Assembly: GCA_016650175.1 (NCBI GenBank)
Contig: JAENWG010000009.1
Location: forward strand, 1 to 43,069
From: Peptostreptococcaceae bacterium
Lineage (GTDB): Bacteria; Bacillota; Clostridia; Peptostreptococcales; Anaerovoracaceae
Direction: 5' to 3'
Length of the DNA: 43,069 nt
In this document: one piece after another, positions 663 through 42,724 of the stretch
Numbering within the stretch: position 1 is the first letter of the stretch
Layout of the letters: the number at the start of each line of letters is the position of its first letter
Position numbers and translations under genes: made by a program
Notes under the pieces: generated by a model
The model's database searches: none
Told to the model about the DNA's origin: nothing
The model's input: only the letters and a program-made list of their open reading frames with translations

Positions 663-890
663 GGTTCACCCAGCATGGGTATAATATTAAGGGTGAAAGT
701 TCCATGTGCAGAAGTGGTTGAAATATAAAGTACATAGTCAAAGGCAAGGGTGTCTATCGTGAGGTAGAAGCTGAAAAAAGAATTAGATACATCTCTGGCC
801 TGACAAACAGAAATTAGATATAAGGCGAGGTCAGTGGATAAAATTGCTTAACAAATTAAAGTCCAACAATACTAATAACGGGCAAACCAC
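661..890 (+). mobile_element. Remnant of the 5' part of a group II intron (no reverse transcriptase)
   Basis: The stretch has the look of bacterial group II intron domain I: a CAGCATGGGTAT segment, the typical GGGTGAAAGT block at 691-700, the GGTGTCTATCGTGAGGTAGAA segment near 748-769, and TGACAAACAGAAAT followed by ATATAAGGC. This is recognised by memory of such introns, not by alignment. No maturase/reverse transcriptase gene and no recognisable domain V follow, so it is a truncated, immobile fragment. It explains most of the otherwise empty interval between rubrerythrin and the hexokinase gene. The 3' limit is approximate. Confidence 0.6.
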
Positions 891-994
891 TAGAAGTAGT
901 AGAATTTGAATAAGAAAAACCTTTGAATTTCGAAATCCAGAGGGTTATATTTGTCTTATTACATTTATTCGTTGGAAAAAATGTAATAAAACAC

Positions 995-28867: not shown

Positions 28868-30820
28868 TTATTCGCGTCTTAGTGAAACTACAGGATCTAG
28901 TTTAGCTGCTTTCATAGCAGGGAACAGACCTGATAGTAAGCTTACTACAACACTTAGTAATATACCTGCTAGCATGTAAACTGGAACAACCTCTGCTATT
29001 GCAATTCCAAAGGCGTTTGTAGTTAATGAGTTTATTATTACACCCATTATGAGTGATGATATAACGCCTAGTATTCCGCTGAAGAATCCAATAAGCAAAG
29101 CTTCGGATGAGAATATTCTTCGAATATCTTTTTTCCTTGCACCGAGGGCTTTCATTAGTCCGATTTCTGCAGTTCTTTCAATAACACTAATATACATAAC
29201 TACTAGTATCATAATTGCTGAAACAAGAAGTGCTATAGCTGCAATACCTGATAATAGATAAGTTACTACATCTATCATGGATACTATTGAAGTAAGCATT
29301 GCTTCTTGCATAGAACCGGTGTAGCCCATAGATACAATTTCTTCCTCTACAGAATCGGTTAAAGTTTCGTTGTCACATAAAAGATACACTACTGTTGGTT
29401 CGATTTCAATGTCATTATCTTTTGCAAATGTACTAATTTCATCATATGTGAAATAGATGCTTGAAAAATTCCCCATACCAGTTGATGTATATATGCCGCT
29501 TACAGTAAATTCACCGGTGATCTCAGTATTATCAATTGCTGTAGTAATCGTTACGGTGGAACCTACGATGTCTTTTCCTAACTTATCTGCTGCAGAACTA
29601 TCTATTAGCACTTCATTAGTTGAAGGCATATTTCCTTCTTCTAAGTTACCCTCCGTCATATTTGATGAAGTAGTGCCAAGTATCATGAAGCTTGTTTCTT
29701 TAGCACCATATTCAATGAGACTTCCTTGCATTGACATTTCAGTGAATCCTGGTTCAATGTTTGAAACACCATCAAGTTTAGCTAATTCAGTTAACTCATC
29801 TTCGGTAAATGGTTCTACTTCGCTTGTCATAAATTCTGCACCTGGAGGCATACCATCTGTTGTTCCGCTGCTGCTTTCAGCTATTTTGTTAACTTCTACG
29901 ACTCTAGGGTTTACTAGGTCTTCCATTGTTCCTGTCATGTAACTTTCTATTCCTTGACCGAGTGACATAATTATTATTATGCTTGCTATTCCAATGGATG
30001 CACCAATTGCAATTAAAATGTTTCTTCCGATTTTCTCTTTCATGTTTCTAAGTGCAAGTGAAAATGAGGAAAAAGCGGAAAGAGATGATGCTTTTTTCTT
30101 AACATTTTTTGTAGATTCTTTTATGGGTTTATCTTCGTTATTAATCTTGCTGTCATCGGTTATTTTGCCATCGGCAACTTGGATAATTCTGTTGCAAGAT
30201 TCAGCTACTTTATCTGAATGAGTAACCATAATAACTAGTTTATCTTCGTTTGCTATTTCTTTTATCAATTCAATTATCTGTTTAGAAGTTTCAGAATCAA
30301 GTGCACCTGTAGGTTCATCAGCAAGTATGATGTCAGGATCATTCATAAGCGCTCTTGCTATAGCAACTCTTTGCATCTGACCACCTGACAACTGATTAGG
30401 CTTTTTATACATATGATCTGCTATACCTACTTTTTCAAGTAGTTCTTTGCCTCTTTTGTTTTTTTCGGCTTTTGAAAGCCCTGAAAGAGTAGCGCCTAAA
30501 GTCACGTTATTTAATACATTCATATGAGGTATCAAATTAAAAGATTGAAATATGAAACCTATATGCATCTTTCTATAATTGTCTATTTCGGTTTCTTTTA
30601 ATTCATTTAGATTAGAACCGGTATACATTATACTGCCTTCATAATCCATATCAAGGCCACCTAAGAGATTCATAAGGGTAGACTTTCCGCTTCCAGATTC
30701 TCCAGTAACGGCTACTAATTCCCCAGGGTTGAAACTTACATCTATTCCTCTAAGGGCTTCGAACTCATTTCCTTTACCCAACTTATATTTTTTCCTAACG
30801 TTTTTTAATTCTAATAACAT
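28868..30820 (-). CDS. MacB-like ABC transporter, fused ATPase and permease
   Basis: A 650-residue fusion. The N-terminal ATPase has Walker A GESGSGKST (40-48), signature LSGGQ (144-148) and Walker B IILADEP (164-170) in the LolD/MacB form. It is followed by a MacB-type permease: a transmembrane helix near 265-285, a large extracytoplasmic MacB_PCD domain, and three C-terminal helices ending FPAMKAAKLDPVVSLRRE, the FtsX hallmark. Fused forms are the MacB arrangement; Firmicutes more often split the two. Likely export of a peptide, antibiotic or lipoprotein-like substrate. GGAAGGA precedes the ATG. It is divergent from a TetR regulator that probably controls it. Confidence 0.94.
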   Translation of the reverse strand: MLLELKNVRKKYKLGKGNEFEALRGIDVSFNPGELVAVTGESGSGKSTLMNLLGGLDMDYEGSIMYTGSNLNELKETEIDNYRKMHIGFIFQSFNLIPHMNVLNNVTLGATLSGLSKAEKNKRGKELLEKVGIADHMYKKPNQLSGGQMQRVAIARALMNDPDIILADEPTGALDSETSKQIIELIKEIANEDKLVIMVTHSDKVAESCNRIIQVADGKITDDSKINNEDKPIKESTKNVKKKASSLSAFSSFSLALRNMKEKIGRNILIAIGASIGIASIIIIMSLGQGIESYMTGTMEDLVNPRVVEVNKIAESSSGTTDGMPPGAEFMTSEVEPFTEDELTELAKLDGVSNIEPGFTEMSMQGSLIEYGAKETSFMILGTTSSNMTEGNLEEGNMPSTNEVLIDSSAADKLGKDIVGSTVTITTAIDNTEITGEFTVSGIYTSTGMGNFSSIYFTYDEISTFAKDNDIEIEPTVVYLLCDNETLTDSVEEEIVSMGYTGSMQEAMLTSIVSMIDVVTYLLSGIAAIALLVSAIMILVVMYISVIERTAEIGLMKALGARKKDIRRIFSSEALLIGFFSGILGVISSLIMGVIINSLTTNAFGIAIAEVVPVYMLAGILLSVVVSLLSGLFPAMKAAKLDPVVSLRRE

Positions 30821-31079: not shown

Positions 31080-31108
31080 AACCGACAGTGTTAGACAGAG
31101 TGTCGGTT
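31080..31108. promoter_or_regulatory. Inverted repeat in the tetR leader
   Basis: AACCGACA (31080-31087) is complementary to TGTCGGTT (31101-31108), with GACAGTGT/GACAGAGTGT repeated inside. It is followed by four T, so it could be an operator for the TetR protein or a leader terminator. It ends 15 bases before the start codon. Confidence 0.5.
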
Positions 31109-31123
31109 TTTGAAAGGAACATT

Positions 31124-31702
31124 ATGGATACTCATGTTAAAAACGGAACAAAACAGAACCTAATAGATGTTTTTTGGATGCTTTATGAAAAGAAAGACAT
31201 TTCAAAAATTACCGTCAAAGAGATAACAGCAATAGCAGGATATAATAGGAGTACTTTTTATGAATACTATAGTGATGTTTATGATGTATTAGATCAGTTA
31301 GAGGAGTCTCTTATGAAAAGACCTATGCCTGAGCTAGAAAAGGATTGTGAAGGTCTCGATTTTGAAAGTAAAATGAGGATAATTTCTAAAGTATTTGAAA
31401 AAAACAAGAAATATTTATCAATTCTTCTAGGTGACAACGGGGACCCAGCATTTCAAAGAAAGATGAAAAACAAAGTAAAACCGATGCTCAGACAAACATT
31501 AATTGAGCAAGGGTTAAAAGATGAGAGCAAGATTGATATAATATTGGAATACCAAATATCTGCAATGCTTGGCATAATGGTTTATATGACTACGTCTAAA
31601 GAACATCCGGATTTAAAGGAGGTTTTTGAAATAACATATAGGATGAGCGAATGTGGGATGTCGAAAACCGTTGAGATGTTGATAGAGGAAGAAGAGGAAT
31701 AG
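31124..31702 (+). CDS. TetR/AcrR-family regulator
   Basis: A 192-residue regulator with an N-terminal TetR-type helix-turn-helix (~10-55): ISKITVKEITAIAGYNRSTF followed by YEYYSD. The C-terminal ligand domain resembles the TetR_C_33 type found in Firmicutes. I start at ATG 31124 with AAAGGA upstream; an in-frame GTG at 31088 would run through the inverted repeat. It is divergent from the MacB-like transporter and 111 bases before the heliorhodopsin, so it could control either. Confidence 0.9.
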   Translation: MDTHVKNGTKQNLIDVFWMLYEKKDISKITVKEITAIAGYNRSTFYEYYSDVYDVLDQLEESLMKRPMPELEKDCEGLDFESKMRIISKVFEKNKKYLSILLGDNGDPAFQRKMKNKVKPMLRQTLIEQGLKDESKIDIILEYQISAMLGIMVYMTTSKEHPDLKEVFEITYRMSECGMSKTVEMLIEEEEE

Positions 31703-31813: not shown

Positions 31814-32599
31814 ATGATGGATGTTAAATTAATGAAACTAAGAAAGTTTAATATGATTATGGGAACGTTTCATTTGATTCAAGGGGTGTTGATGATTTTC
31901 CTTGCAACAACCGTTATTCAAAAGATAGGTGAATTTTCACCTCAAGTAACGCAATATTATTTATCTTATAACATAGAAACTCAAACCTTGGAAAATGCTT
32001 CTAAAGTATTATTTGAATTGCCTTTCGGGATTTTAGTAGCTGTATTTTTACTGCTGTCTGCAGCCGCTCATGCTTTAATATCATTGCCAAAGAAAACAAA
32101 TGATATATATAACAGAGACTTAGCTGTAGGAATAAATAAATTTAGATGGTTTGAATATGCACTTAGTTCATCTGTTATGATTATTTTAATTTCCACACTT
32201 TTTGGAATATATGATATTGGATCACTTATTCTAATATTTGCAGCTAATTTCTCAATGAATATGTTTGGACTTCTTATGGAAGAACTAAATTCAACAAAAG
32301 ACAAAGTAAATTGGGGACCTTTTATTTGGGGTTCAGTAGCAGGGATTGCTCCTTGGATAGTTATATTGGTTTATATGCTAGGGAATAACAATTTAGACAT
32401 GGTACCTTGGTTCGTATGGGCTATAGTTATAACATATTTCATAGCATTTAATACATTCCCAATAAATATGATACTTCAATATAAAAAAGTTGGAAAATGG
32501 AAAGACTATATCTATGGTGAAAGAGTATATATTACGCTTAGCTTGATAGCCAAAACAGTACTTGCATGGTTAGTATTCTTTGGTGCAATGCAACCTTAA
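31814..32599 (+). CDS. Heliorhodopsin
   Basis: A 261-residue seven-helix retinal protein of the heliorhodopsin family, which has inverted membrane topology (N terminus inside) relative to type 1 rhodopsins. The helix-7 Schiff-base lysine is K247 in LSLIAKTVLAW, and the helix-3 counterion is E114 in RWFEYALSSSVMI. H20 and H86 match the conserved retinal-pocket histidines (H23 and H80 in the founding protein 48C12). WGPFIWGSVAGIAPWIVI and INMILQYKKVGKWKDYI are family blocks. Start is ATG 31814 after AAGGAGG; the next codon is also ATG. No retinal or carotenoid synthesis gene is in the window. Function is unsettled; signalling or light-stress roles have been proposed. Confidence 0.95.
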   Translation: MMDVKLMKLRKFNMIMGTFHLIQGVLMIFLATTVIQKIGEFSPQVTQYYLSYNIETQTLENASKVLFELPFGILVAVFLLLSAAAHALISLPKKTNDIYNRDLAVGINKFRWFEYALSSSVMIILISTLFGIYDIGSLILIFAANFSMNMFGLLMEELNSTKDKVNWGPFIWGSVAGIAPWIVILVYMLGNNNLDMVPWFVWAIVITYFIAFNTFPINMILQYKKVGKWKDYIYGERVYITLSLIAKTVLAWLVFFGAMQP

Positions 32600-32640: not shown

Positions 32641-32655
32641 CTACCCTTAAGGTAG
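32641..32655. promoter_or_regulatory. MerR-type dyad before the aldehyde dehydrogenase
   Basis: CTACC-cttaa-GGTAG, a 5-5-5 dyad, is the form usually bound by MerR-family activators. It lies 125 bases before the aldehyde dehydrogenase start and 41 bases after the heliorhodopsin stop. No merR gene is in the window, and I see no clear -35/-10 pair with MerR-type spacing around it. Confidence 0.45.
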
Positions 32656-32779
32656 ACAGTTAAAAATACAAGACTGTTTATCTTAGGGGTTTTCGGTTTG
32701 AAAGGCTAAACGAAAGATAAAACTTATAAAATTTACTAAAAATTAATAAATTTGGATCAGAAAAGAAGGAGGAATCTGT

Positions 32780-34186
32780 ATGGAAAGATTAAAATTGTAC
32801 ATTGACGGAATATGGACTGAAGCGGATGGTAGAGAAATTATAGAAGTTTTAAATCCGGAAAGCCATGAAGTAATAGCCAAGGTTCCACGTTGTAATGAAA
32901 AGGATGTAAACAGAGGAGTTGCAGCTGCTAAAAAAGCGTTTGTTACTTGGCAATATACACCTTTAGAAGAGAGACTTTCTCTGATGGAAAAAGTCGTTCA
33001 GGGAATGAAAGATAATCGTGAGCTTTTTATTAAGACGATTAGTGCAGAACTTGGATGCCCTATTAAAGTGGCGGCGGAATCACATACGAATCCTAGTATT
33101 CTTGAAGCTGAAAACTATGTGAGAATAGCAAGGGAATTTAATTATGAGGAAAGAAGAGAAACCTCAGTTGTACGTAGAGAACCTGTAGGTGTAGTTGCGG
33201 GTCTAACACCTTGGAATTTTCCGTTTGAGCAAATTGAGAAAAAAGTAGTTCCTGCACTTCTGGCGGGGTGTTGTGTAATACTTAAACCAAGTCAACAAAC
33301 TCCTTTAACTGCGTACCTACTTGCAGATTTGATTGAAAAAGTGGGCTATCCAGCTGGAGTATTTAACCTCATACCTGGACGTGGCGCAGAAGTAGGGAAT
33401 GTTTTGGCGCTTCATCCTGACGTAGATATGATTTCTTTTACAGGATCAACTAATGCTGGTAGAGAAGTAGGCAGATTTGCATTAAGTAATATTAAGCGTA
33501 TTGCCTTGGAGTTGGGAGGAAAATCTGCTGCCATTCTTCTTAAAGGAGGAGACTCGGAATTTGCTGTTAAATCTGTATTAGATACAGTCGTACCTAATGC
33601 AGGACAAACATGTAATGCATTAACAAGATTGTTAGTTCCAAAAGATGAGCTAAAAAGTGTTGAGAATATTATTCTAGAACAGTTAAAAAATTACAAATGC
33701 GGAGCTAATAGCGATTATGATACAGATCAAGGCCCTCTTGCTTCACAGAAGCAGTTTGATCGTGTAAAGAAATATATACAGATTGGTATTGATGAAGGCG
33801 CACGTCTTCTAACTGGAGGACTTCCAAAAGAAGGCAAAGACTTTTATGTGGAACCTACTGTTTTTGTAGATGTAGAACCTGCTATGCGTATAGCACAGGA
33901 AGAAATATTTGGACCTGTTTTAGTGGTTATATCATATGATACAGTTGATGAAGCAGTAGAAATTGCAAATGACAGTATATATGGTCTTGGCGGTGCAGTA
34001 TTTGGATCTGAAGAAGAAGCTAATGCGGTTGCACGCCGAATAAGGACGGGTACTATTTATGTTAATCGTGGACAATATGATATTGAATCACCATTTGGAG
34101 GATATAAACAATCAGGCATAGGCAGAGAAGGCGGAACAGAGGGCTATGAAGAGTTCCTCGAAGTTAAAACAATTTATGACTGTTAA
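32780..34186 (+). CDS. NAD(P)-dependent aldehyde dehydrogenase
   Basis: Oxidises an aldehyde to its acid. The 468-residue protein has every class motif: PWN (144-146), K169 in ILKPSQQTP, FTGST (220-224), the general base E244 in LELGGKSA, and the nucleophile C278 in NAGQTCNALTRLLV, followed by EEIFGPVLVV. The substrate is not readable; medium-chain or aromatic aldehydes are plausible. It follows the heliorhodopsin on the same strand, with a MerR-like dyad in the 180-base gap, so it may have its own promoter. An activity on retinal is conceivable but unsupported. GGAGG precedes the ATG. Confidence 0.95.
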   Translation: MERLKLYIDGIWTEADGREIIEVLNPESHEVIAKVPRCNEKDVNRGVAAAKKAFVTWQYTPLEERLSLMEKVVQGMKDNRELFIKTISAELGCPIKVAAESHTNPSILEAENYVRIAREFNYEERRETSVVRREPVGVVAGLTPWNFPFEQIEKKVVPALLAGCCVILKPSQQTPLTAYLLADLIEKVGYPAGVFNLIPGRGAEVGNVLALHPDVDMISFTGSTNAGREVGRFALSNIKRIALELGGKSAAILLKGGDSEFAVKSVLDTVVPNAGQTCNALTRLLVPKDELKSVENIILEQLKNYKCGANSDYDTDQGPLASQKQFDRVKKYIQIGIDEGARLLTGGLPKEGKDFYVEPTVFVDVEPAMRIAQEEIFGPVLVVISYDTVDEAVEIANDSIYGLGGAVFGSEEEANAVARRIRTGTIYVNRGQYDIESPFGGYKQSGIGREGGTEGYEEFLEVKTIYDC

Positions 34187-34238
34187 CTTTTTATGGGAAT
34201 AGAAAAAAATTGAATTTTAAAGAATCAATGACATTTCA

Positions 34239-34287
34239 AGTACACCCTAACTGTTAGTTTTCTGTCTAATGGTTAGGGTGTACTTTA
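34239..34287 (+). terminator. Terminator after the aldehyde dehydrogenase
   Basis: AGTACACCCTAAC (34239-34251) is exactly complementary to GTTAGGGTGTACT (34272-34284), a 13-bp stem, followed by TTATACTTTA. The remaining 34288-34453 stretch holds two copies of ACTTAATC-NN-CATT at about 34345-34358 and 34374-34387 and no gene. Confidence 0.87.
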
Positions 34288-34510: not shown

Positions 34511-35866
34511 ATGGAAAAGACTGTATGCGAATTATTTGCAGGTGTAGGTGGATTTAGATTAGGATTAGAAAATTCATCAAAAGAATGGAAAACAGTATGG
34601 TTTAACCAATGGGAACCTAATAAAGGTATTCAATGGGCTCATGGCTGTTATGTTCATAATTTTGGAGATGTTGTAATAGAGGACAATAGTATTAATAGTA
34701 ATACTGATATAGAAGTGGTGAATAAAAAAAATATACCAAAACATAATTTGTTAGTTGGTGGATTTCCCTGTCAAGACTATTCGGTAGCTAGAGGATTAAA
34801 GAATGAAAAAGGTATTCATGGTAAAAAAGGAGTGCTTTGGTGGTCTATTAGAGATGTTTTAATAGCTAAAAAACCACCATTTGTATTGTTAGAGAATGTA
34901 GATAGATTACTTAAATCGCCTTCTAAACAAAGAGGCCGAGATTTCGGGATAATACTAGCTTGTCTTAACGATTTAAATTATTCTGTGGAGTGGAGAGTTG
35001 TTAATGCTGCTAAATACGGGGCAGCACAAAGACGACGACGAGTATTTATATTTGCGTATAAGAATAATACTAAATATGCTAAAAATATTAAAAAAGTAAA
35101 AAGGGAAGCTATAATTGGAACTGAAGGTTTTTTTGCACAAACTTTTCCGATTGAAAACATAGAATCTGAATTAACTCCGACTCAAATTGAATTCAAAAAT
35201 ATTGAAAAAGTTTCAGATGATTTTGAATTTAATTTTCAAAATGCGGGATATTGCGAACGAGGCAATATATACACTGTTAAAGTAAAAGAGATAGAAGAAG
35301 CACCGATTACTCTCGATGAAATATTGCAAAATCGTAAAAAATATAACAGGAAATACTATAAAATTGACGAATCATATTTTGTTCCGATAGATAAATTATA
35401 TTATAATCTAGATAAACGTAATCATTATGATGAAGAAACAGATGGTGATTATGAAAGTATAAGATCTACATGGCAATATATAAAAGGTGGCAAGAAAAAA
35501 CATAGAATATCTAAAACGGGATACAAGTACGAATTTTCTGAAGGTCCTGTTCCTTTTCCGGAACCGTTGAATAAACCTAGTAGGACAATGCTTACTAGTG
35601 AAAGTACTTTCAATAGAAGCACACATGTGGTTATGGATCCAGTGAAACACAGAATTAGAAAAATTACTCCGATTGAGGCAGAACGTCTCCAAGGATTTAA
35701 TGATTGTTGGACAAAATTATGTGATTTTACAATAAAAGGACAAGTAGAAACTAAGGAAATGCCAGAACGCATGAGATATTTTTGCATGGGTAATGCATTA
35801 GTAGTACCGATGGTAACAAGGATGGCTAAAACTATCGAACAGATTATGGATGATGTTGATAGATAA
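34511..35866 (+). CDS. dcm: DNA (cytosine-5)-methyltransferase, M.Sau3AI-like
   Basis: A 451-residue C5 methyltransferase. Motif I is ELFAGVGGFRLGLE (7-20), motif IV has the catalytic C87 in GGFPCQDYSVA, motif VI is LLENVDRLLKSP with E128, motif VIII is QRRRR (173-177), and the C-terminal motifs IX-X are present as TPIEAERLQGF and FCMGNALVVPMV. From memory these blocks follow M.Sau3AI closely, including GKKGVL and RGRDF, so the target is predicted to be GATC with the C methylated. A Sau3AI-like nuclease lies downstream on the other strand, which supports this. The next gene starts nine bases after the stop. Confidence 0.95.
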   Translation: MEKTVCELFAGVGGFRLGLENSSKEWKTVWFNQWEPNKGIQWAHGCYVHNFGDVVIEDNSINSNTDIEVVNKKNIPKHNLLVGGFPCQDYSVARGLKNEKGIHGKKGVLWWSIRDVLIAKKPPFVLLENVDRLLKSPSKQRGRDFGIILACLNDLNYSVEWRVVNAAKYGAAQRRRRVFIFAYKNNTKYAKNIKKVKREAIIGTEGFFAQTFPIENIESELTPTQIEFKNIEKVSDDFEFNFQNAGYCERGNIYTVKVKEIEEAPITLDEILQNRKKYNRKYYKIDESYFVPIDKLYYNLDKRNHYDEETDGDYESIRSTWQYIKGGKKKHRISKTGYKYEFSEGPVPFPEPLNKPSRTMLTSESTFNRSTHVVMDPVKHRIRKITPIEAERLQGFNDCWTKLCDFTIKGQVETKEMPERMRYFCMGNALVVPMVTRMAKTIEQIMDDVDR

Positions 35867-35875
35867 GAGGTGAGT

Positions 35876-37081
35876 ATGGAATATTTGTTTAACGAACTGG
35901 AAAATGCGGATATAGTTATAGATTCTGTTTATAAAAGTGGGTCGGCTAATAATATTTCTTCGGAACCCTTGCATAAATTGTTTCCGAAATGTGGAAATAT
36001 GAGCGGATTTAGAAAAGTTAAAAGAGATGACGGGAGAGGCATTGCCTATGTGATTTTGTATACGTCTATGGAAGAATTAGAGTGGCCTGATTATCTAGAC
36101 GAAGAGACGGGTATATTTAGATATTATGGTGATAATAGAAAGCCTGGCAATTTAATCACATTCACTAAGCAAGGTGGTAATGAATTACTTGAAAATGTAT
36201 TTGCAATGTTAAATAGTAATGGCCCGTTAGATGATATTCCGCCATTTTTTCTTTTCAAGAAAACTGGTAATAAAAGGGATGTACAATTTTTAGGATTGGC
36301 AGCGCCGGGTAATCCTAAATTATCTTCTGATAGAGATTTGGTAGCATTTTGGAGAACTATGAATAATAAAAGATTTCAGAATTATGAGGCTTATTTTACA
36401 ATATTAAATACTGGTAATAATAGTATACCTAGAGAATGGTTAAATGCATTGATAAAAAACCATGATGATAGTTTAAAGTTTGCGCCTGAAGTATGGAAAA
36501 GATTTATTATGATGGGAAGAAATGGAATTGAGCCATTGATAGCCAGGAAAATCATAAAAGTACCATCTCCTTATGAACAATTACAAAGTGATGAAAATGG
36601 AAGACTTTGTATAGATTATATTAGAAAGTATTATAAAGAGAAACCTACAGGATTTGAAGAATGCGCTATTAATATAGTTGAGAAAATGGACCCGAATTTT
36701 TCGAGTTTTAATTTAACTAGACCTTGGAGAGATGGTGGCAGAGATGCTATAGGCTACTATTCTATTCATTCAGATGGAAAAGCTAATTACCCTTTGAAAA
36801 TTGATTGTGCTTTGGAAGCGAAGTGTTATGCAGAAAAAAACTCTGTAGGAGTAAGGGAAATGTCACGACTTATTTCAAGAATACGTTATAGGCAATTTGG
36901 TATTATGATTACTACTAGCTATATACATAAGCAAGCGTACAGTGAAGTTATTGAAGATGGTCATCCTATATTAATATTAACAGCTTCAGATATAGCTAAT
37001 GTGCTTAGAAGAAATAGTATAGATAATCTAAATATTAATGACTGGATTAAATCAATAGACGGAGTTCACAAAATAATTTAA
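35876..37081 (+). CDS. Restriction endonuclease, AspBHI-like N-terminal and Mrr-like catalytic domains
   Basis: A 401-residue putative nuclease. The N-terminal half (VILYTSMEELEWPDYLDEET, then GIFRYYGDNRKPGN and RDVQFLGLAAPG) resembles the AspBHI-type DNA-recognition domain found in modification-sensing enzymes. The C-terminal part has a PD-(D/E)xK core of the Mrr kind: GFEECAINIVEKM, WRDGGRDAIG (285-293) with the active aspartate, and LEAKC (313-317) with the ExK pair. I start at ATG 35876 behind AGAGG; an in-frame GTG at 35870 overlaps that site. It is in the same run as a C5 methyltransferase, so it must tolerate that methylation or recognise something else. Confidence 0.8.
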   Translation: MEYLFNELENADIVIDSVYKSGSANNISSEPLHKLFPKCGNMSGFRKVKRDDGRGIAYVILYTSMEELEWPDYLDEETGIFRYYGDNRKPGNLITFTKQGGNELLENVFAMLNSNGPLDDIPPFFLFKKTGNKRDVQFLGLAAPGNPKLSSDRDLVAFWRTMNNKRFQNYEAYFTILNTGNNSIPREWLNALIKNHDDSLKFAPEVWKRFIMMGRNGIEPLIARKIIKVPSPYEQLQSDENGRLCIDYIRKYYKEKPTGFEECAINIVEKMDPNFSSFNLTRPWRDGGRDAIGYYSIHSDGKANYPLKIDCALEAKCYAEKNSVGVREMSRLISRIRYRQFGIMITTSYIHKQAYSEVIEDGHPILILTASDIANVLRRNSIDNLNINDWIKSIDGVHKII

Positions 37082-37088
37082 GCGGAGA

Positions 37089-38549
37089 TTAATTTCTCTG
37101 CTCTTTTTTTAATGCTAATATTTCATCTCTAACATATGAAGCATTCAAGAAGAAAGATTGCTTAGTGAAGACTTGTCCGCTTGGTAAAGGTAAGGTGTCA
37201 TCCTTATTTTTTCCATGTGGTCTGATATGGCATACTCTATTTTCTTTGCTGGAAGGCAGATTATTAAAAGTACGACTGCCATGTTTCTTAGCTTTTATGC
37301 CTTCATTGAGTCTTTCTTTAGTCTTTGACCAAACAACCTTGACTTCATTTTCAATATCAGAATTGCTCATATTCCAAAATGTAGCAAAATATAGATGTAA
37401 ATGTTTATCCATATTAGGATAATCTGTTATGTCTTCATATTTCTTATATTCAGAATCCTTTTTGAAAACTACGAATAAAAATTTAGTTTCTGATAAATAG
37501 GTGTTTATTTTGGAATCATCCCAAGATTCCTTAGACATTTCTATAAAATCAAATGCAGGTAATGATATATTTTCCTTTAAACTTTGGCTATTTTCTAACC
37601 TTATAGTTTTAACTTTGATACCTGCTTTGATGAATTCTTCAGCATTGTTAGATTTTAGACCTAATATTTTAAAAACTAATGATGATTCTAAATTCTTAGG
37701 TCTACTACCCATATAATTTATATTATAATTACTCATTAGTTCAGTTATAGATAAGCCAGTAGAATCATTTATAGTATTAAAAATATAATTTTCAAAGTCG
37801 CCTGAATATTGGATGTTATCGTAAGTTTTCTTTTTAGGAATTATATAGGTATTAAGTACATATGTCATATAAGAGTTTTTAAAGCAAAAAGCTCGGTGTT
37901 TGGCTTGAACATCAGAAAAAGGTTGAGAGGTGTAACTACTGTTTGCAGTAGCTCCTTTAGTACAAGCACCTAAGTATAAAGTATCTCCTTCAGAAAGATT
38001 ATGTGCATCACCTGATTTGATTTTGTTGATAATTTTATTAAAATCTGATCTGATTATGTCTAAATCCTTCTCGGGAATTTGGAAGAGCTGTACATAATTT
38101 ATAGTGTAATCAAGTTTATTTATTCCCTTAGTATATAAATAATATATAAGTAATATCAAATTACACTTATCAAGTAAATGGCTTGTTTCTAAAGTTTCGT
38201 TAATTACTTTTGAATAATCAATATTAGTCAGTACTAATCGCTCTTTTGCTGAGCGAGTACTATTTTTATTTATCTTATATGGGGTAACTTTAAGTTCTAC
38301 GCCAGCTTTATTAAAATCCGCAGAAGAACATGGATTTAACATATAGTGAAAATAGTATAATTCTATTAGATGTCCCAAACTACCTTTAGCCGCATTTGAT
38401 TCGAAATATTCAATGCCATATTTATTTAAGCTAGTAGATTCGCTTAAAGTTATTTCATGTTCGAGTATATTCCTAAAGGTAAATCCGGTTAGTTTTTTGG
38501 CATAAAGTTCAATACTGGTTGGTGAAAATTCGTCATAATAATAATTCAC
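37089..38549 (-). CDS. Sau3AI-family (MutH-like) type II restriction endonuclease
   Basis: A 486-residue protein, close to the size of Sau3AI. The MutH/Sau3AI active site is seen as KGSLGHLIE (55-63), then D78 and the ExK pair E85/K87 in DFNKAGVELKVTPYK, followed by SAKERLVL. The second half repeats a related fold (SSLVFKILGLKSNNAEEF) without the full catalytic set, as in Sau3AI. Predicted target is GATC. I choose GTG 38549 as start because AAGGAG lies five bases before it; the open frame runs 24 codons further, through the promoter. It is convergent with the AspBHI-like gene (7-base gap) and divergent from the HNH gene. Confidence 0.93.
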   Translation of the reverse strand: MNYYYDEFSPTSIELYAKKLTGFTFRNILEHEITLSESTSLNKYGIEYFESNAAKGSLGHLIELYYFHYMLNPCSSADFNKAGVELKVTPYKINKNSTRSAKERLVLTNIDYSKVINETLETSHLLDKCNLILLIYYLYTKGINKLDYTINYVQLFQIPEKDLDIIRSDFNKIINKIKSGDAHNLSEGDTLYLGACTKGATANSSYTSQPFSDVQAKHRAFCFKNSYMTYVLNTYIIPKKKTYDNIQYSGDFENYIFNTINDSTGLSITELMSNYNINYMGSRPKNLESSLVFKILGLKSNNAEEFIKAGIKVKTIRLENSQSLKENISLPAFDFIEMSKESWDDSKINTYLSETKFLFVVFKKDSEYKKYEDITDYPNMDKHLHLYFATFWNMSNSDIENEVKVVWSKTKERLNEGIKAKKHGSRTFNNLPSSKENRVCHIRPHGKNKDDTLPLPSGQVFTKQSFFLNASYVRDEILALKKEQRN

Positions 38550-38591
38550 TTGTTCTCCTTTATGATAAATATTAGAATTATTTACTAAACA

Positions 38592-38620
38592 ATTATACAA
38601 CAAATGTGCTATAATGTACA
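38592..38620 (-). promoter_or_regulatory. Promoter of the Sau3AI-like gene, overlapped by an opposing -10
   Basis: On the minus strand TGTACA (38615-38620), a 17-bp spacer and TATAAT (38592-38597). On the plus strand a second TATAAT lies at 38610-38615 with TAAACA 18 bp upstream, a candidate promoter for the HNH gene. The two would compete for polymerase. Confidence 0.55.
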
Positions 38621-38661
38621 TAAATGTGTTAAATGTGTTAAATGTGTTAAATGTGTTAAAT
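38621..38661. repeat. Tandem repeat, 4.5 copies of a 9-base unit
   Basis: TAAATGTGT is repeated exactly four times from 38621 to 38656, then TAAAT. The array abuts the minus-strand -35 of the Sau3AI-like promoter and lies in the predicted leader of the HNH gene. It could be a cluster of regulator sites or a slip-prone array that varies expression. Confidence 0.9.
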
Positions 38662-38687
38662 TTGGTGCAATTATATGGTGGAATTGA

Positions 38688-39473
38688 ATGAACGAAAAAG
38701 ACATTGTTTATAAATTGGGTTTAGCTATTTATTTATTTGACAATAAAAGGGTAGCTGACAGACAATTTCTCAGCAGAATAATTAGTGAATTATATATAGC
38801 AACTGGAATAGATCTTAATGCTGAAACATTAGGGTTTCATTTGTCTTGTTATAAATTAGTTGATCCTAGACTTCCACATACCAAGAATCAGGCATTGTCT
38901 TTGTATAATCGCTACTTTACTATTTATAGAACTAAAAAAAATAAAAACGAATTAATGGCTTTTTATAAATTAATTAAGAGTGGATTGTTTCAATACAGTA
39001 TAAACAATGCAATATACGACGGAAGTGAAGAATCTTTTTTTAAATTTTTAAGTGGGAAACCAAATAATACGTTTAAAGAAGACATACCTATAGCTACAAA
39101 TAAGAATGTATTAGAAAACATCGAAAATTCAATATCGATTAATAAAAGAAGTCAACAAATTAAATTTAATGCATTAGCGTTGGCGAATTTCGTATGTGAA
39201 ATAGATAATAACCATTTTGTATTTCAAAGAAAAAACCAGATATATGGATACACTGAAGCTCATCATTTAATACCTATAAAAGCTCAGTTGGATTTTGATA
39301 ATAGTCTTGATGTTGAGGCAAATATAATATCAATATGTGCAAATTGCCATAGGGAAATACATTATGGGAAGAATAATTTGGAATTAGTCAAATTATTATA
39401 TAATAAGAAAAGAGAACGTCTATTAAAAGTAGGATTAAAATTAAATTTAGAAGAACTGAATGAATATTATTAA
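38688..39473 (+). CDS. HNH endonuclease
   Basis: A 261-residue protein with a C-terminal HNH nuclease: the H-H pair in EAHHLIPI (190-197), the middle N of EANIISIC (212), and CANCHREIHYG (217-227) with a CxxC and the final histidine. The ~150-residue N-terminal part (VYKLGLAIYLFDNKRVADRQ and LHSCYKLVDPRLPH-like blocks) is not recognised and may bind DNA or partners. Only one cysteine (C170) stands where HNH zinc sites often have a pair. The gene is 15 bases before the ParB-like gene, so it belongs to the same operon. GGTGGA precedes the ATG. Confidence 0.87.
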   Translation: MNEKDIVYKLGLAIYLFDNKRVADRQFLSRIISELYIATGIDLNAETLGFHLSCYKLVDPRLPHTKNQALSLYNRYFTIYRTKKNKNELMAFYKLIKSGLFQYSINNAIYDGSEESFFKFLSGKPNNTFKEDIPIATNKNVLENIENSISINKRSQQIKFNALALANFVCEIDNNHFVFQRKNQIYGYTEAHHLIPIKAQLDFDNSLDVEANIISICANCHREIHYGKNNLELVKLLYNKKRERLLKVGLKLNLEELNEYY

Positions 39474-39488
39474 CGGAGGAATTTAATT

Positions 39489-40736
39489 ATGTTAACAAGA
39501 TCTGAAGCTAAAACACAAATCGTAGGATTGATTAATAGTCATGATGCAATTATTAAAGGTGTAAAAATACCTATTAGAAAAGATGAAAAATTTGACGTCT
39601 ATAGCATCCCAATTGATTATTTAGTGCCTAATGTCATTAATGACAGACTAGCGTGGAGAATTAGAGAATTTGAGGCTGAAGAAGGTGTTAAACTATCTAA
39701 CGAAAAAGAGGAACATGTAGAGTTTGTCTATGGTTTGATTTCTGATGAACATCCTAGTGAGAATAAAAAAACTAAAAAAGACTTAGCTATTAAAGGTCAA
39801 GAGGAGTATGGTATTATTACCAATAATGGAATAATTATTGATGGTAATCGAAGAGCCACTTTATTGCGAGAATTGTTTAATGGAGAAGCTACAGCATATA
39901 ACAAAAATGTAGAAGAATTTAGATGTTTTAAATGCGTTGTATTAAAAGAAGATGTTACCGAAGACGAGATAAGTTCTTTGGAAACATTGGTGCAAATTGG
40001 GAAAGATGAAAAAGTACCTTATAATCCTATAAATATGTATATAAAAATAGATAATTTGTTTAATCTAGGAAAGAATTATTCCCAGATTTCAAATCTAATG
40101 CAGGGTCGTTTTACTGAAAAAGATATAGAAAATAAGCACAAGTTATATGCGTTTATGGTAAATTACTTAGATGCTATAGGTAAACCGGACCATTTTACAT
40201 TATTGGAGGGACTAGAAGACCCTTTTATTAAGACTAATAACATGATTGATAAATTGAAAAGTAAGTCGTACGCAGCTGAGTGGGATTATACAGATGAAGA
40301 CATCGACGATTTTACTCAAACGTGTTTCGATTATATGAGAACCAAATATGAAGGAAAAGAATATCGATCCATACTTTTGGGTGGAGTCAATAAAAACAAA
40401 GAAAATGGAGTTTTTATTGATGAAAAAGTTTGGAAAGATTTTTATGAAAATCATAGTAATATTATAGATGCAGCTGAGGCCAAGGGAAAACTGAACAACG
40501 AGCATGATTGGAGTTTGTTAAAGCCTAATTTTCAGAGGAATCTTAGTAACGCCAATTCTAAACTTGTAGATATATTAGCAGATAAAAATGTAAGTGATTT
40601 ATTAAATATTATCGAAATAAAAATTTCAAAATTAGAAGATATAGTAGATAAAAAAGAAGATTTAACGGAAGCAAATATTGAAAGTATGAAATTACTAGGA
40701 AGTCGTTTGTATAAAGTTTGGAAGCAGTTTGAGTAA
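39489..40736 (+). CDS. ParB/sulfiredoxin-like domain protein
   Basis: A 415-residue protein with a ParB/Srx-type core around IITNNGIIIDGNRRATLLRE, where the DGNRR motif is at 118-122. ParB-like enzymes of this kind bind or hydrolyse nucleotides, and several act as nucleases in mobile elements and defence loci. The remaining ~280 residues are mostly helical and charged and are not recognised. It lies between an HNH nuclease (15 bases) and an SNF2-like helicase (one-base overlap, TAATG), so the three act together. CGGAGGAA precedes the ATG. Confidence 0.8.
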   Translation: MLTRSEAKTQIVGLINSHDAIIKGVKIPIRKDEKFDVYSIPIDYLVPNVINDRLAWRIREFEAEEGVKLSNEKEEHVEFVYGLISDEHPSENKKTKKDLAIKGQEEYGIITNNGIIIDGNRRATLLRELFNGEATAYNKNVEEFRCFKCVVLKEDVTEDEISSLETLVQIGKDEKVPYNPINMYIKIDNLFNLGKNYSQISNLMQGRFTEKDIENKHKLYAFMVNYLDAIGKPDHFTLLEGLEDPFIKTNNMIDKLKSKSYAAEWDYTDEDIDDFTQTCFDYMRTKYEGKEYRSILLGGVNKNKENGVFIDEKVWKDFYENHSNIIDAAEAKGKLNNEHDWSLLKPNFQRNLSNANSKLVDILADKNVSDLLNIIEIKISKLEDIVDKKEDLTEANIESMKLLGSRLYKVWKQFE

Positions 40737-42724
40737 TGAGAATTAATAGTGTAGATAATAAAAGTATTAGTATTGAAGCGATGAGCATATCTAATCGGCA
40801 ACTAAGCAGATTTAAGATAATGCTTCAAAATTCCGGTTCGGTTTTTGTTGAATATGAGAAAGACAAGGCTATAGTATCATTTGAAAATTTTGACCAATGT
40901 TTATTAGCTGAAACAATTGAAAAGATAATGACTTTCTTAATAAAATGTGATTCTAATTTAGAAGTTGATAATGAAATCACTAGAATTATCAATGAAAATA
41001 AAAATATGAAAAACGAGTCAAAAGAGATAACAAAAAAATTAGTGTTGATAAAAACACTAGATGCAACGGACAGTAATTACAATGAGTTTTGTGAAGAGTG
41101 TAATCATATATTAAGTATAAGACTAAGAGATTATCAATATATAGCGGCTTATCAATTGATCGTAGGGAAAGGCGGGTTCAATTTTTCGGTACCGGGTTCA
41201 GGCAAGACGATTATTTCTTATGCATCATATGCATATCTGAAAATATATAATAAAATTGATTCAGCATTGGTTATAGCACCTAAAAATGCTTCTATTGCAT
41301 GGTACGAAGAGTATATTACTTGTTTTAATGAAACACCAGACTTTATTAATTTAGCAGATTTAACAAAGAAGGATTGTGTAGAATATTTGAATTCATCGGT
41401 AACTAACCATAAAGAAATAACTTTTATAAATTATGAAAAAATAAGATTGCTTACAAAAGATTTGTTGAACTTTGTTAATAGAAAAAATGTTATGCTTCTG
41501 GTAGATGAAGGACATAAAGTCAAAAACCCTAATGCGAAAGCTACAAAAGCCGTTCTTTTGATAGCGCATCATATTGAATATACTGTTATTTTAACTGGTA
41601 CACCAATGCCAAATGGTTACGAAGATTTAAGTTCTTTAATAAAAATATATTCACCACATAATAATATATTGCCGTACAATTATTCTAAATTGAAACAGAT
41701 TACTAAAAGTGAAAATAATGAAACTGCAGAAAATCGAATTATGAAAGCTATATATCCTTATTATTCAAGGGTATCAAAAAAATATTTGTTAAAAAAGGGC
41801 GAGTTAGAAGAACCAACTATTAATATTGTAAAATGTGAAATGGATACTAAACAGCAATATATTTATGATTATGTAAATGGTATTTGTAATGATATTCTCA
41901 ATGAATTGGAGGATAATTTTACATTAGAACTTCATAAGGCATTAATAATTAGAAAGATGCAAGCGTCAGCCAATCCCGGTTTATTAACAAGAAGTTTACT
42001 AAAATATATAAATGAATTTAAAAGCTTATTGATGGATTACGATGAAGTTGAAATAGATAAGTTAAGTGATAAAGAATTAGCTGAACAGTATAGAGCAGCC
42101 GATAATAGAATTACAGAATCACTAAGCAACTCGAAAATTATTACAATTATTAATGAGTACCGTAATTACAATAGTATACCCATTAAGAATTTAAAAGCTG
42201 TTCAATTAGCTAAAGAAATAATTGAAACGGGTGATAAGGTTATAATTTGGGATGTGTTTGTAGATAATATGCAGGCATTAGTGGAGTTGCTGGAAGTAGA
42301 TAAAATAAAAACAGTAGTAATCAATGGAAGCATTGTAGGTGAAGACAGACAAGAAGCTATAAAAAATTTCAAGGAAGGAAATGTGATGGTTATGATCGCA
42401 TCTCCAGCAACTTTAGCAGAATCGATTTCATTACATAAAGCTTGTCAAAATGCTATTTACGTTAATAGAAATTATAATGCAGCGCAGTTCATACAATCTA
42501 AAGATAGAATTCATAGGATAAATATGCCGCTCAATACCACTGCCCATTACTATTTTTTAGAGAACACTAACAGCATAGATGAAATTATTGAGGAAAGGTT
42601 ACAAATCAAAGAAAATAGAATGCTGCGAATACTAGATTCAGAAGAATTACTGATTGGGGAAATGGAGTCGTTAGAGAATGATAGTTTAAGCGAAGCGGAT
42701 GTTAAAGCATCTTTTATTAAGTGA
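40736..42724 (+). CDS. SNF2-like DEAD/DEAH-box helicase
   Basis: A 662-residue superfamily 2 ATPase. After a ~125-residue N-terminal region comes LRDYQYIAAYQL (Q-like motif), Walker A VPGSGKT (152-158), LVIAPKNASIAWYEE (Ia), the DEGH box (257-260) in LLVDEGHKVKNP, LTGTPMPNG (286-294, motif III) and, in the second RecA domain, ASPATLAESISL and QSKDRIHRI (motif VI). FSVPGSGKT replaces the usual ADEMGLGKT of SNF2 proteins. It likely translocates on DNA to power or steer the HNH and ParB-like partners. Its start overlaps the ParB-like stop. Confidence 0.92.
   Translation: MRINSVDNKSISIEAMSISNRQLSRFKIMLQNSGSVFVEYEKDKAIVSFENFDQCLLAETIEKIMTFLIKCDSNLEVDNEITRIINENKNMKNESKEITKKLVLIKTLDATDSNYNEFCEECNHILSIRLRDYQYIAAYQLIVGKGGFNFSVPGSGKTIISYASYAYLKIYNKIDSALVIAPKNASIAWYEEYITCFNETPDFINLADLTKKDCVEYLNSSVTNHKEITFINYEKIRLLTKDLLNFVNRKNVMLLVDEGHKVKNPNAKATKAVLLIAHHIEYTVILTGTPMPNGYEDLSSLIKIYSPHNNILPYNYSKLKQITKSENNETAENRIMKAIYPYYSRVSKKYLLKKGELEEPTINIVKCEMDTKQQYIYDYVNGICNDILNELEDNFTLELHKALIIRKMQASANPGLLTRSLLKYINEFKSLLMDYDEVEIDKLSDKELAEQYRAADNRITESLSNSKIITIINEYRNYNSIPIKNLKAVQLAKEIIETGDKVIIWDVFVDNMQALVELLEVDKIKTVVINGSIVGEDRQEAIKNFKEGNVMVMIASPATLAESISLHKACQNAIYVNRNYNAAQFIQSKDRIHRINMPLNTTAHYYFLENTNSIDEIIEERLQIKENRMLRILDSEELLIGEMESLENDSLSEADVKASFIK

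Follow-up and report, generated by a model that had tools for sequence, protein, structure and literature searches.

A heliorhodopsin gene in a probably anaerobic clostridium for which no known route to retinal was found

Mesotoga infera, Dehalogenimonas alkenigignens and Thermococcus sp. are anaerobes. Their heliorhodopsins, expressed with 5-10 µM all-trans retinal, absorb at 530-539 nm, and the heliorhodopsin of Halolactibacillus absorbs at 545 nm (PMC7807009). Strictly anaerobic Firmicutes carry heliorhodopsins as well (PMC8612252), and the same question of missing retinal has been discussed for the bathyarchaeal proteins (PMC7110647). Organisms that do not synthesize retinal also use heliorhodopsin, which takes up external retinal quickly via an opening (PMC9296517). 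The leading model sees members of the family as light sensors or regulatory helpers (PMC8612252; PMC11109279; PMC9529153). Here we describe a heliorhodopsin gene in a 43,069-nucleotide stretch of clostridial DNA, the whole of which is referred to below as the window.

The protein and its retinal pocket

The gene under study is the following.

31814..32599, + strand: heliorhodopsin gene, 261 aa, assigned by PF18761, NF038020, PDB matches, Foldseek and the column check

The reading frame is intact over its 261 codons, and its ATG start is preceded by a strong Shine-Dalgarno sequence (GAAGGAGGAAATAT). The Pfam search matched PF18761 over the whole profile (E 8.3e-99, 330 bits, cut-off 26.7) and detected no additional domain, while the NCBIfam equivalog NF038020 'HeR' scored 307 bits, its cut-off being 100. 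The PDB sequence matches are exclusively heliorhodopsins, the best being 6is6 (TaHeR, 2.3e-56), with 48C12 at 9e-51. An AlphaFold2 model (pLDDT 71.5), for which eight homologues were used, adopts the seven-helix fold with a long structured A-B loop containing strands 44-53 and 58-68, in agreement with the TaHeR and 48C12 crystals. Foldseek aligned this model to 6is6 at E 3.6e-15 and TM 0.86, with type-1 rhodopsins at best E 9e-4. In the sequence, K/R residues are abundant at the N terminus and in loops 2-3 and 6-7, and loop 1-2 is acidic, a charge distribution that would fit an inverted topology in which the N terminus faces inward.

The retinal pocket was analyzed in the column check, an alignment of 88 sequences including a comparison with 48C12 and TaHeR. 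K247, E114, H20 and H86 of the window protein correspond to K241, E107, H23 and H80 of 48C12, and S82 and S243 to S76 and S237, so that the SxxxK motif of helix 7 (S243-L-I-A-K247) is aligned to S237/K241. E114 in helix 3 also corresponds to Glu-108 of TaHeR, and this glutamate is conserved in all 88 sequences. N108, R111, W112, Y115, W181, N213, Q222 and W229 match their 48C12 counterparts, and these positions too are invariant or nearly so. Overall, the pocket residues, including the Schiff-base lysine, are conserved in 85-88 of the 88 sequences, the remainder being gaps or single changes. Previous work on 48C12 identified E107 as the counterion and found H23 and H80 to be dispensable (PMC6951262); H20 and H86 therefore serve more to mark the family than to prove that retinal is bound.

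The first-pass annotation had described a genuine retinal-type heliorhodopsin with a retinal lysine at K247, a helix-3 counterion at E114 and two pocket histidines. The profile and PDB matches, together with the pocket residues, confirm that the product of 31814-32599 is a genuine heliorhodopsin (type-3 rhodopsin), and the alignment to 48C12 bears out all four positions, with K247 and E114 correctly placed. The accompanying suggestion of a different chromophore found no support, given that the pocket residues examined are all retained and none appears to deviate in a way that would hint at another ligand.

Host, neighbourhood and distribution of the gene

The window belongs to genome G000, a draft of 1.63 Mb in 82 contigs (78% complete, 0.91% contamination) with a single heliorhodopsin copy. 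Its sister species, G001 (97% complete), encodes a heliorhodopsin that is 88% identical to the window protein. Between the two genes dN is 0.073 and dS 0.67, and the resulting dN/dS of about 0.1 reveals purifying selection. The TetR protein encoded upstream is just 70% identical across the same divergence, so heliorhodopsin is better conserved than this neighbour. The window also contains rubrerythrin and two GcvP halves, and cytochrome bd was found in none of G000, G001 and the related genome G322, while 10 of 14 controls were positive; these observations lend indirect support to the earlier view that the host is probably an anaerobe.

The heliorhodopsin gene is surrounded by the following features.

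28868..30820, - strand: MacB-like ABC transporter, an ATPase-FtsX permease fusion (PF00005, PF12704, PF02687), divergent from TetR
31088..31702, + strand: TetR-family regulator, 111 nt upstream of heliorhodopsin on the same strand, with synteny in G001
32643..32690, + strand: probable transcription terminator, a 19-bp stem-loop with a short T tail, directly 3' of heliorhodopsin
32780..34186, + strand: aldehyde dehydrogenase (PF00171, 2.7e-153), 180 nt downstream of heliorhodopsin
34238..34285, + strand: 20-bp terminator-like hairpin, 3' of aldehyde dehydrogenase

The order and orientations in G001 are those of the window: the MacB-like transporter (-), TetR (+), heliorhodopsin (+) and aldehyde dehydrogenase (+), with the transporter 84% and the dehydrogenase 85% identical and in the same places. 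The TetR gene matches PF14278 TetR_C_8 (1.1e-8) and, weakly, PF00440, and its weak match to a DhaS-like NCBIfam model is below the cut-off. The aldehyde dehydrogenase reached the cut-off of no listed NCBIfam subfamily, and no profile marks the enzyme as retinal-specific.

The whole gap between heliorhodopsin and aldehyde dehydrogenase folds with a z of -4.8 relative to shuffles, and the G001 gap contains the same hairpin. This hairpin occurs only once in the window, no Rfam family covers it, and it most likely ends transcription of the heliorhodopsin gene. A single operon of TetR, heliorhodopsin and aldehyde dehydrogenase was considered and set aside, as the conserved hairpin argues against it and the dehydrogenase is thus probably on a separate transcript. 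In the gap between TetR and heliorhodopsin, which is poorly conserved (111 nt in the window versus 78 nt in G001), no terminator was seen; co-transcription is therefore possible, and the two genes may share one transcript.

In the named genome collection, the nearest 80 loci encode proteins of 62-77% identity and come mostly from metagenome bins. The named taxa among them are Fusibacter bizertensis, Anaerobium acetethylicum, Proteiniclasticum, Sedimentibacter, Trichococcus, Enterococcus aquimarinus and Halolactibacillus, and the higher taxa are Acholeplasmataceae, other Mycoplasmatota, Erysipelotrichaceae, Anaerolineaceae and Dehalococcoidia. Strict or facultative anaerobes make up most of these taxa. 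In the tree, the nearest homologues and the window protein are split from TaHeR and 48C12 (99/95 support), and the window and G001 proteins are sisters with full support. Within the order, heliorhodopsin exceeds the family cut-off in 14 of 394 genomes. The hypothesis that the order's 13 heliorhodopsins form one clade was rejected (p-AU 0.012), with 7 state changes on the tree, indicating that the gene moved between lineages. A separate origin within the window's own family, suggested by the placement of G322 in another clade, was not upheld, since one clade was not rejected there (p-AU 0.32).

Two heliorhodopsin genes of the order appear to be split near the end of helix 1, L013/L018 (G177:C31) and L014/L017 (G111:C5), with profile positions 1-28 and about 24-242 in separate frames, possibly through a frameshift or sequencing error.

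Among 83 neighbourhoods, the conserved TetR, MacB-like exporter and aldehyde dehydrogenase genes occur in the window's genus alone. A photolyase-like gene, identified from inspection of the sequences and from the published Trichococcus operon, is the commonest neighbour in the clade (20 of 83). It is located either upstream of heliorhodopsin on the same strand, as in Trichococcus and Anaerolineaceae, or divergently within 8-176 nt, as in Acholeplasmataceae and relatives (L042, L044, L067 and L040 are example loci for these arrangements).

Elsewhere in the window, a defence-like island lies directly downstream (34511-42724). It encodes a cytosine-5 methylase, an AspBHI/Mrr-type endonuclease, a MutH-family protein, an HNH endonuclease, a 415-aa protein with no Pfam match and a SNF2-type helicase. 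At 753-924 (+), between rubrerythrin and a hexokinase-family gene, there is an Rfam group-II-D1D4-3 intron match (71 bits), and the next gene, at 1075, starts too close to allow for a reverse transcriptase ORF. That gene (1075-2379, +) encodes a PF00349 + PF03727 hexokinase, a type familiar chiefly from eukaryotes and present here in a clostridium.

Retinal supply

Phytoene synthase is the committed step to C40 carotenoids, and Brp/Blh uses oxygen and would help only cells importing beta-carotene. In the order's 14 heliorhodopsin genomes, 12 of them with a completeness of 90% or more, no phytoene synthase (PF00494) was found, whereas 7 of 14 control genomes were positive. Without this enzyme there is no self-made beta-carotene to cleave, and hence no de novo retinal by the known route. 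Among 14 further heliorhodopsin genomes, PF00494 was clear only in Halolactibacillus and Proteiniclasticum ruminis. The RPE65-type carotenoid oxygenase (PF03055) was detected in 0 of 28 heliorhodopsin genomes, with two positive controls. Brp/Blh (PF15461) gave nothing above the cut-off in any genome, but this result comes with no positive control: a screen for one among 399 genomes from the class that includes Halolactibacillus likewise had no match above the cut-off. In P. ruminis (L115, G407), the phytoene/squalene-synthase family gene is a clear match (5.8e-57), and a cleavage enzyme was not found.

De novo synthesis of retinal by the known route is therefore excluded as far as these genomes go. 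The first-pass annotation had noted that no retinal synthesis gene lies in the window and had proposed a search for brp/blh and the crt genes; the absence of PF00494 and PF03055 agrees with this, the controls for both having worked, while the Brp/Blh part of the search carries less weight because it has no positive control. The puzzle that it raised is real in that no synthesis was found, but it is neither specific to this host cell nor new, as close homologues are common in anaerobes and the question has been published. Our interpretation is accordingly new only in part. The bacterium probably collects retinal from its surroundings.

Proposed function and relation to known systems

The reading that we consider probable is that of a functional, canonical heliorhodopsin acting as a light sensor or regulatory helper with scavenged retinal, its gene coming from a mobile pool in anaerobes. 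The seven-helix protein would span the membrane, its N terminus facing the cell interior, and would bind external all-trans retinal, K247 forming the Schiff base and E114 serving as the counterion. Absorption of green light would drive a slow photocycle and a shape change relayed to a cytoplasmic or membrane partner; ion pumping is not part of the proposed role. The retinoids, not being made by a known route, would be supplied by phototrophs or other organisms. The gene would have been drawn from heliorhodopsins moving among anaerobic Bacillota, Mycoplasmatota and Chloroflexota, and then retained by selection in the genus. No adjacent gene has a proven heliorhodopsin partnership, so the sensor role rests on the family.

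Several other explanations have to be weighed against this one. The heliorhodopsin of Ornithinimicrobium reportedly binds and up-regulates the OmrDE multidrug exporter, and the best local rival is that the window protein light-regulates the neighbouring MacB-like exporter, directly or via TetR. The order of exporter (-), TetR and heliorhodopsin is retained in G001, the other species of the genus examined, co-transcription of TetR and heliorhodopsin is conceivable in the absence of a terminator between them, and ABC transporters paired with heliorhodopsin make up one of the ten neighbour groups described in PMC11109279. However, two species of one genus would share this gene order anyway, the three neighbours cluster with none of the neighbouring genes at the other 81 loci, and a TetR gene divergent from an exporter is a common self-sufficient unit alone. 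Given that MacB-type and OmrDE-type transporters are also distinct ABC classes, and that the gap between TetR and heliorhodopsin is weakly conserved (111 versus 78 nt), we regard such regulation as unlikely. A role in assisting DNA photolyase, like that in Trichococcus flocculiformis, draws on published binding in Trichococcus (PMC9769723) and on the photolyase-like genes of the 20 neighbourhoods, which lie at most eight genes, and mostly one or two, from heliorhodopsin. Here it is extremely improbable: PF00875 is absent from G000, the 97%-complete G001 and G322, while eight controls and the relatives G042 and G172 were positive, which makes a photolyase partnership unlikely in this host. The same absence from the window's genus indicates that the photolyase-helper model cannot cover every member of the clade.

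That no retinal synthesis was found could also be taken to mean that the protein does not use retinal, and instead carries another chromophore or has a role unrelated to light. Such a protein would be predicted to show relaxed constraint on K247 and E114, whereas the pocket, Schiff-base lysine included, is retained in 85-88 of 88 sequences, and heliorhodopsins from anaerobes do form a pigment with retinal (PMC7807009); we find this very improbable. There is just as slight a chance that the anaerobe employs an unknown oxygen-independent route to retinal or an equivalent aldehyde chromophore, or another chromophore. If true, a retinal-type photoreceptor would operate without the known oxygen-dependent pathway. 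Finally, an incomplete draft in 82 contigs invites the question of whether the gene is a contaminant or a misassembly of a metagenome bin, but contamination is 0.91%, the gene is internal to a 43-kb contig, and the flanking genes on either side recur around the G001 homologue at 70-88% identity. A sister species with an 88% identical homologue in the same gene order means that the gene is not a contaminant, and the likelihood of this explanation is practically nil.

A canonical heliorhodopsin supplied with scavenged retinal would extend the known pattern in which anaerobes that carry the protein must obtain retinal externally. It adds a clean case to the known question of what heliorhodopsin does in cells unable to make its pigment. 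As the clade includes cultured Fusibacter, Anaerobium, Proteiniclasticum and Trichococcus, the dependence on retinal is directly testable.

Among the known systems, the archaeal TaHeR (PDB 6is6) is 43% identical to the window protein over the full length (TM 0.86) and shares its lysine, counterion, cavity histidines and SxxxK motif, but has T in place of N145, A in place of S119 and a shorter loop 1-2. In 48C12 (PDB 6su3/6uh3), which is about 41% identical, K241, E107, H23, H80, S76 and S237 are aligned to their counterparts, while I142 and G193 differ from N149 and W199 of the window protein. The MORN-heliorhodopsins of strictly anaerobic haloalkaliphilic Firmicutes (PMC8612252) likewise occur in strict anaerobes, but carry N-terminal MORN repeats, whereas the window protein has no extra domain. 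The heliorhodopsins of anaerobic Bacillota, Mycoplasmatota and Chloroflexota, including Anaerolineaceae, are 62-77% identical and share both the clade and the pocket of the window protein; their neighbourhoods differ, with photolyase in part of them, and the TetR, ABC transporter and aldehyde dehydrogenase setting is particular to the window's genus.
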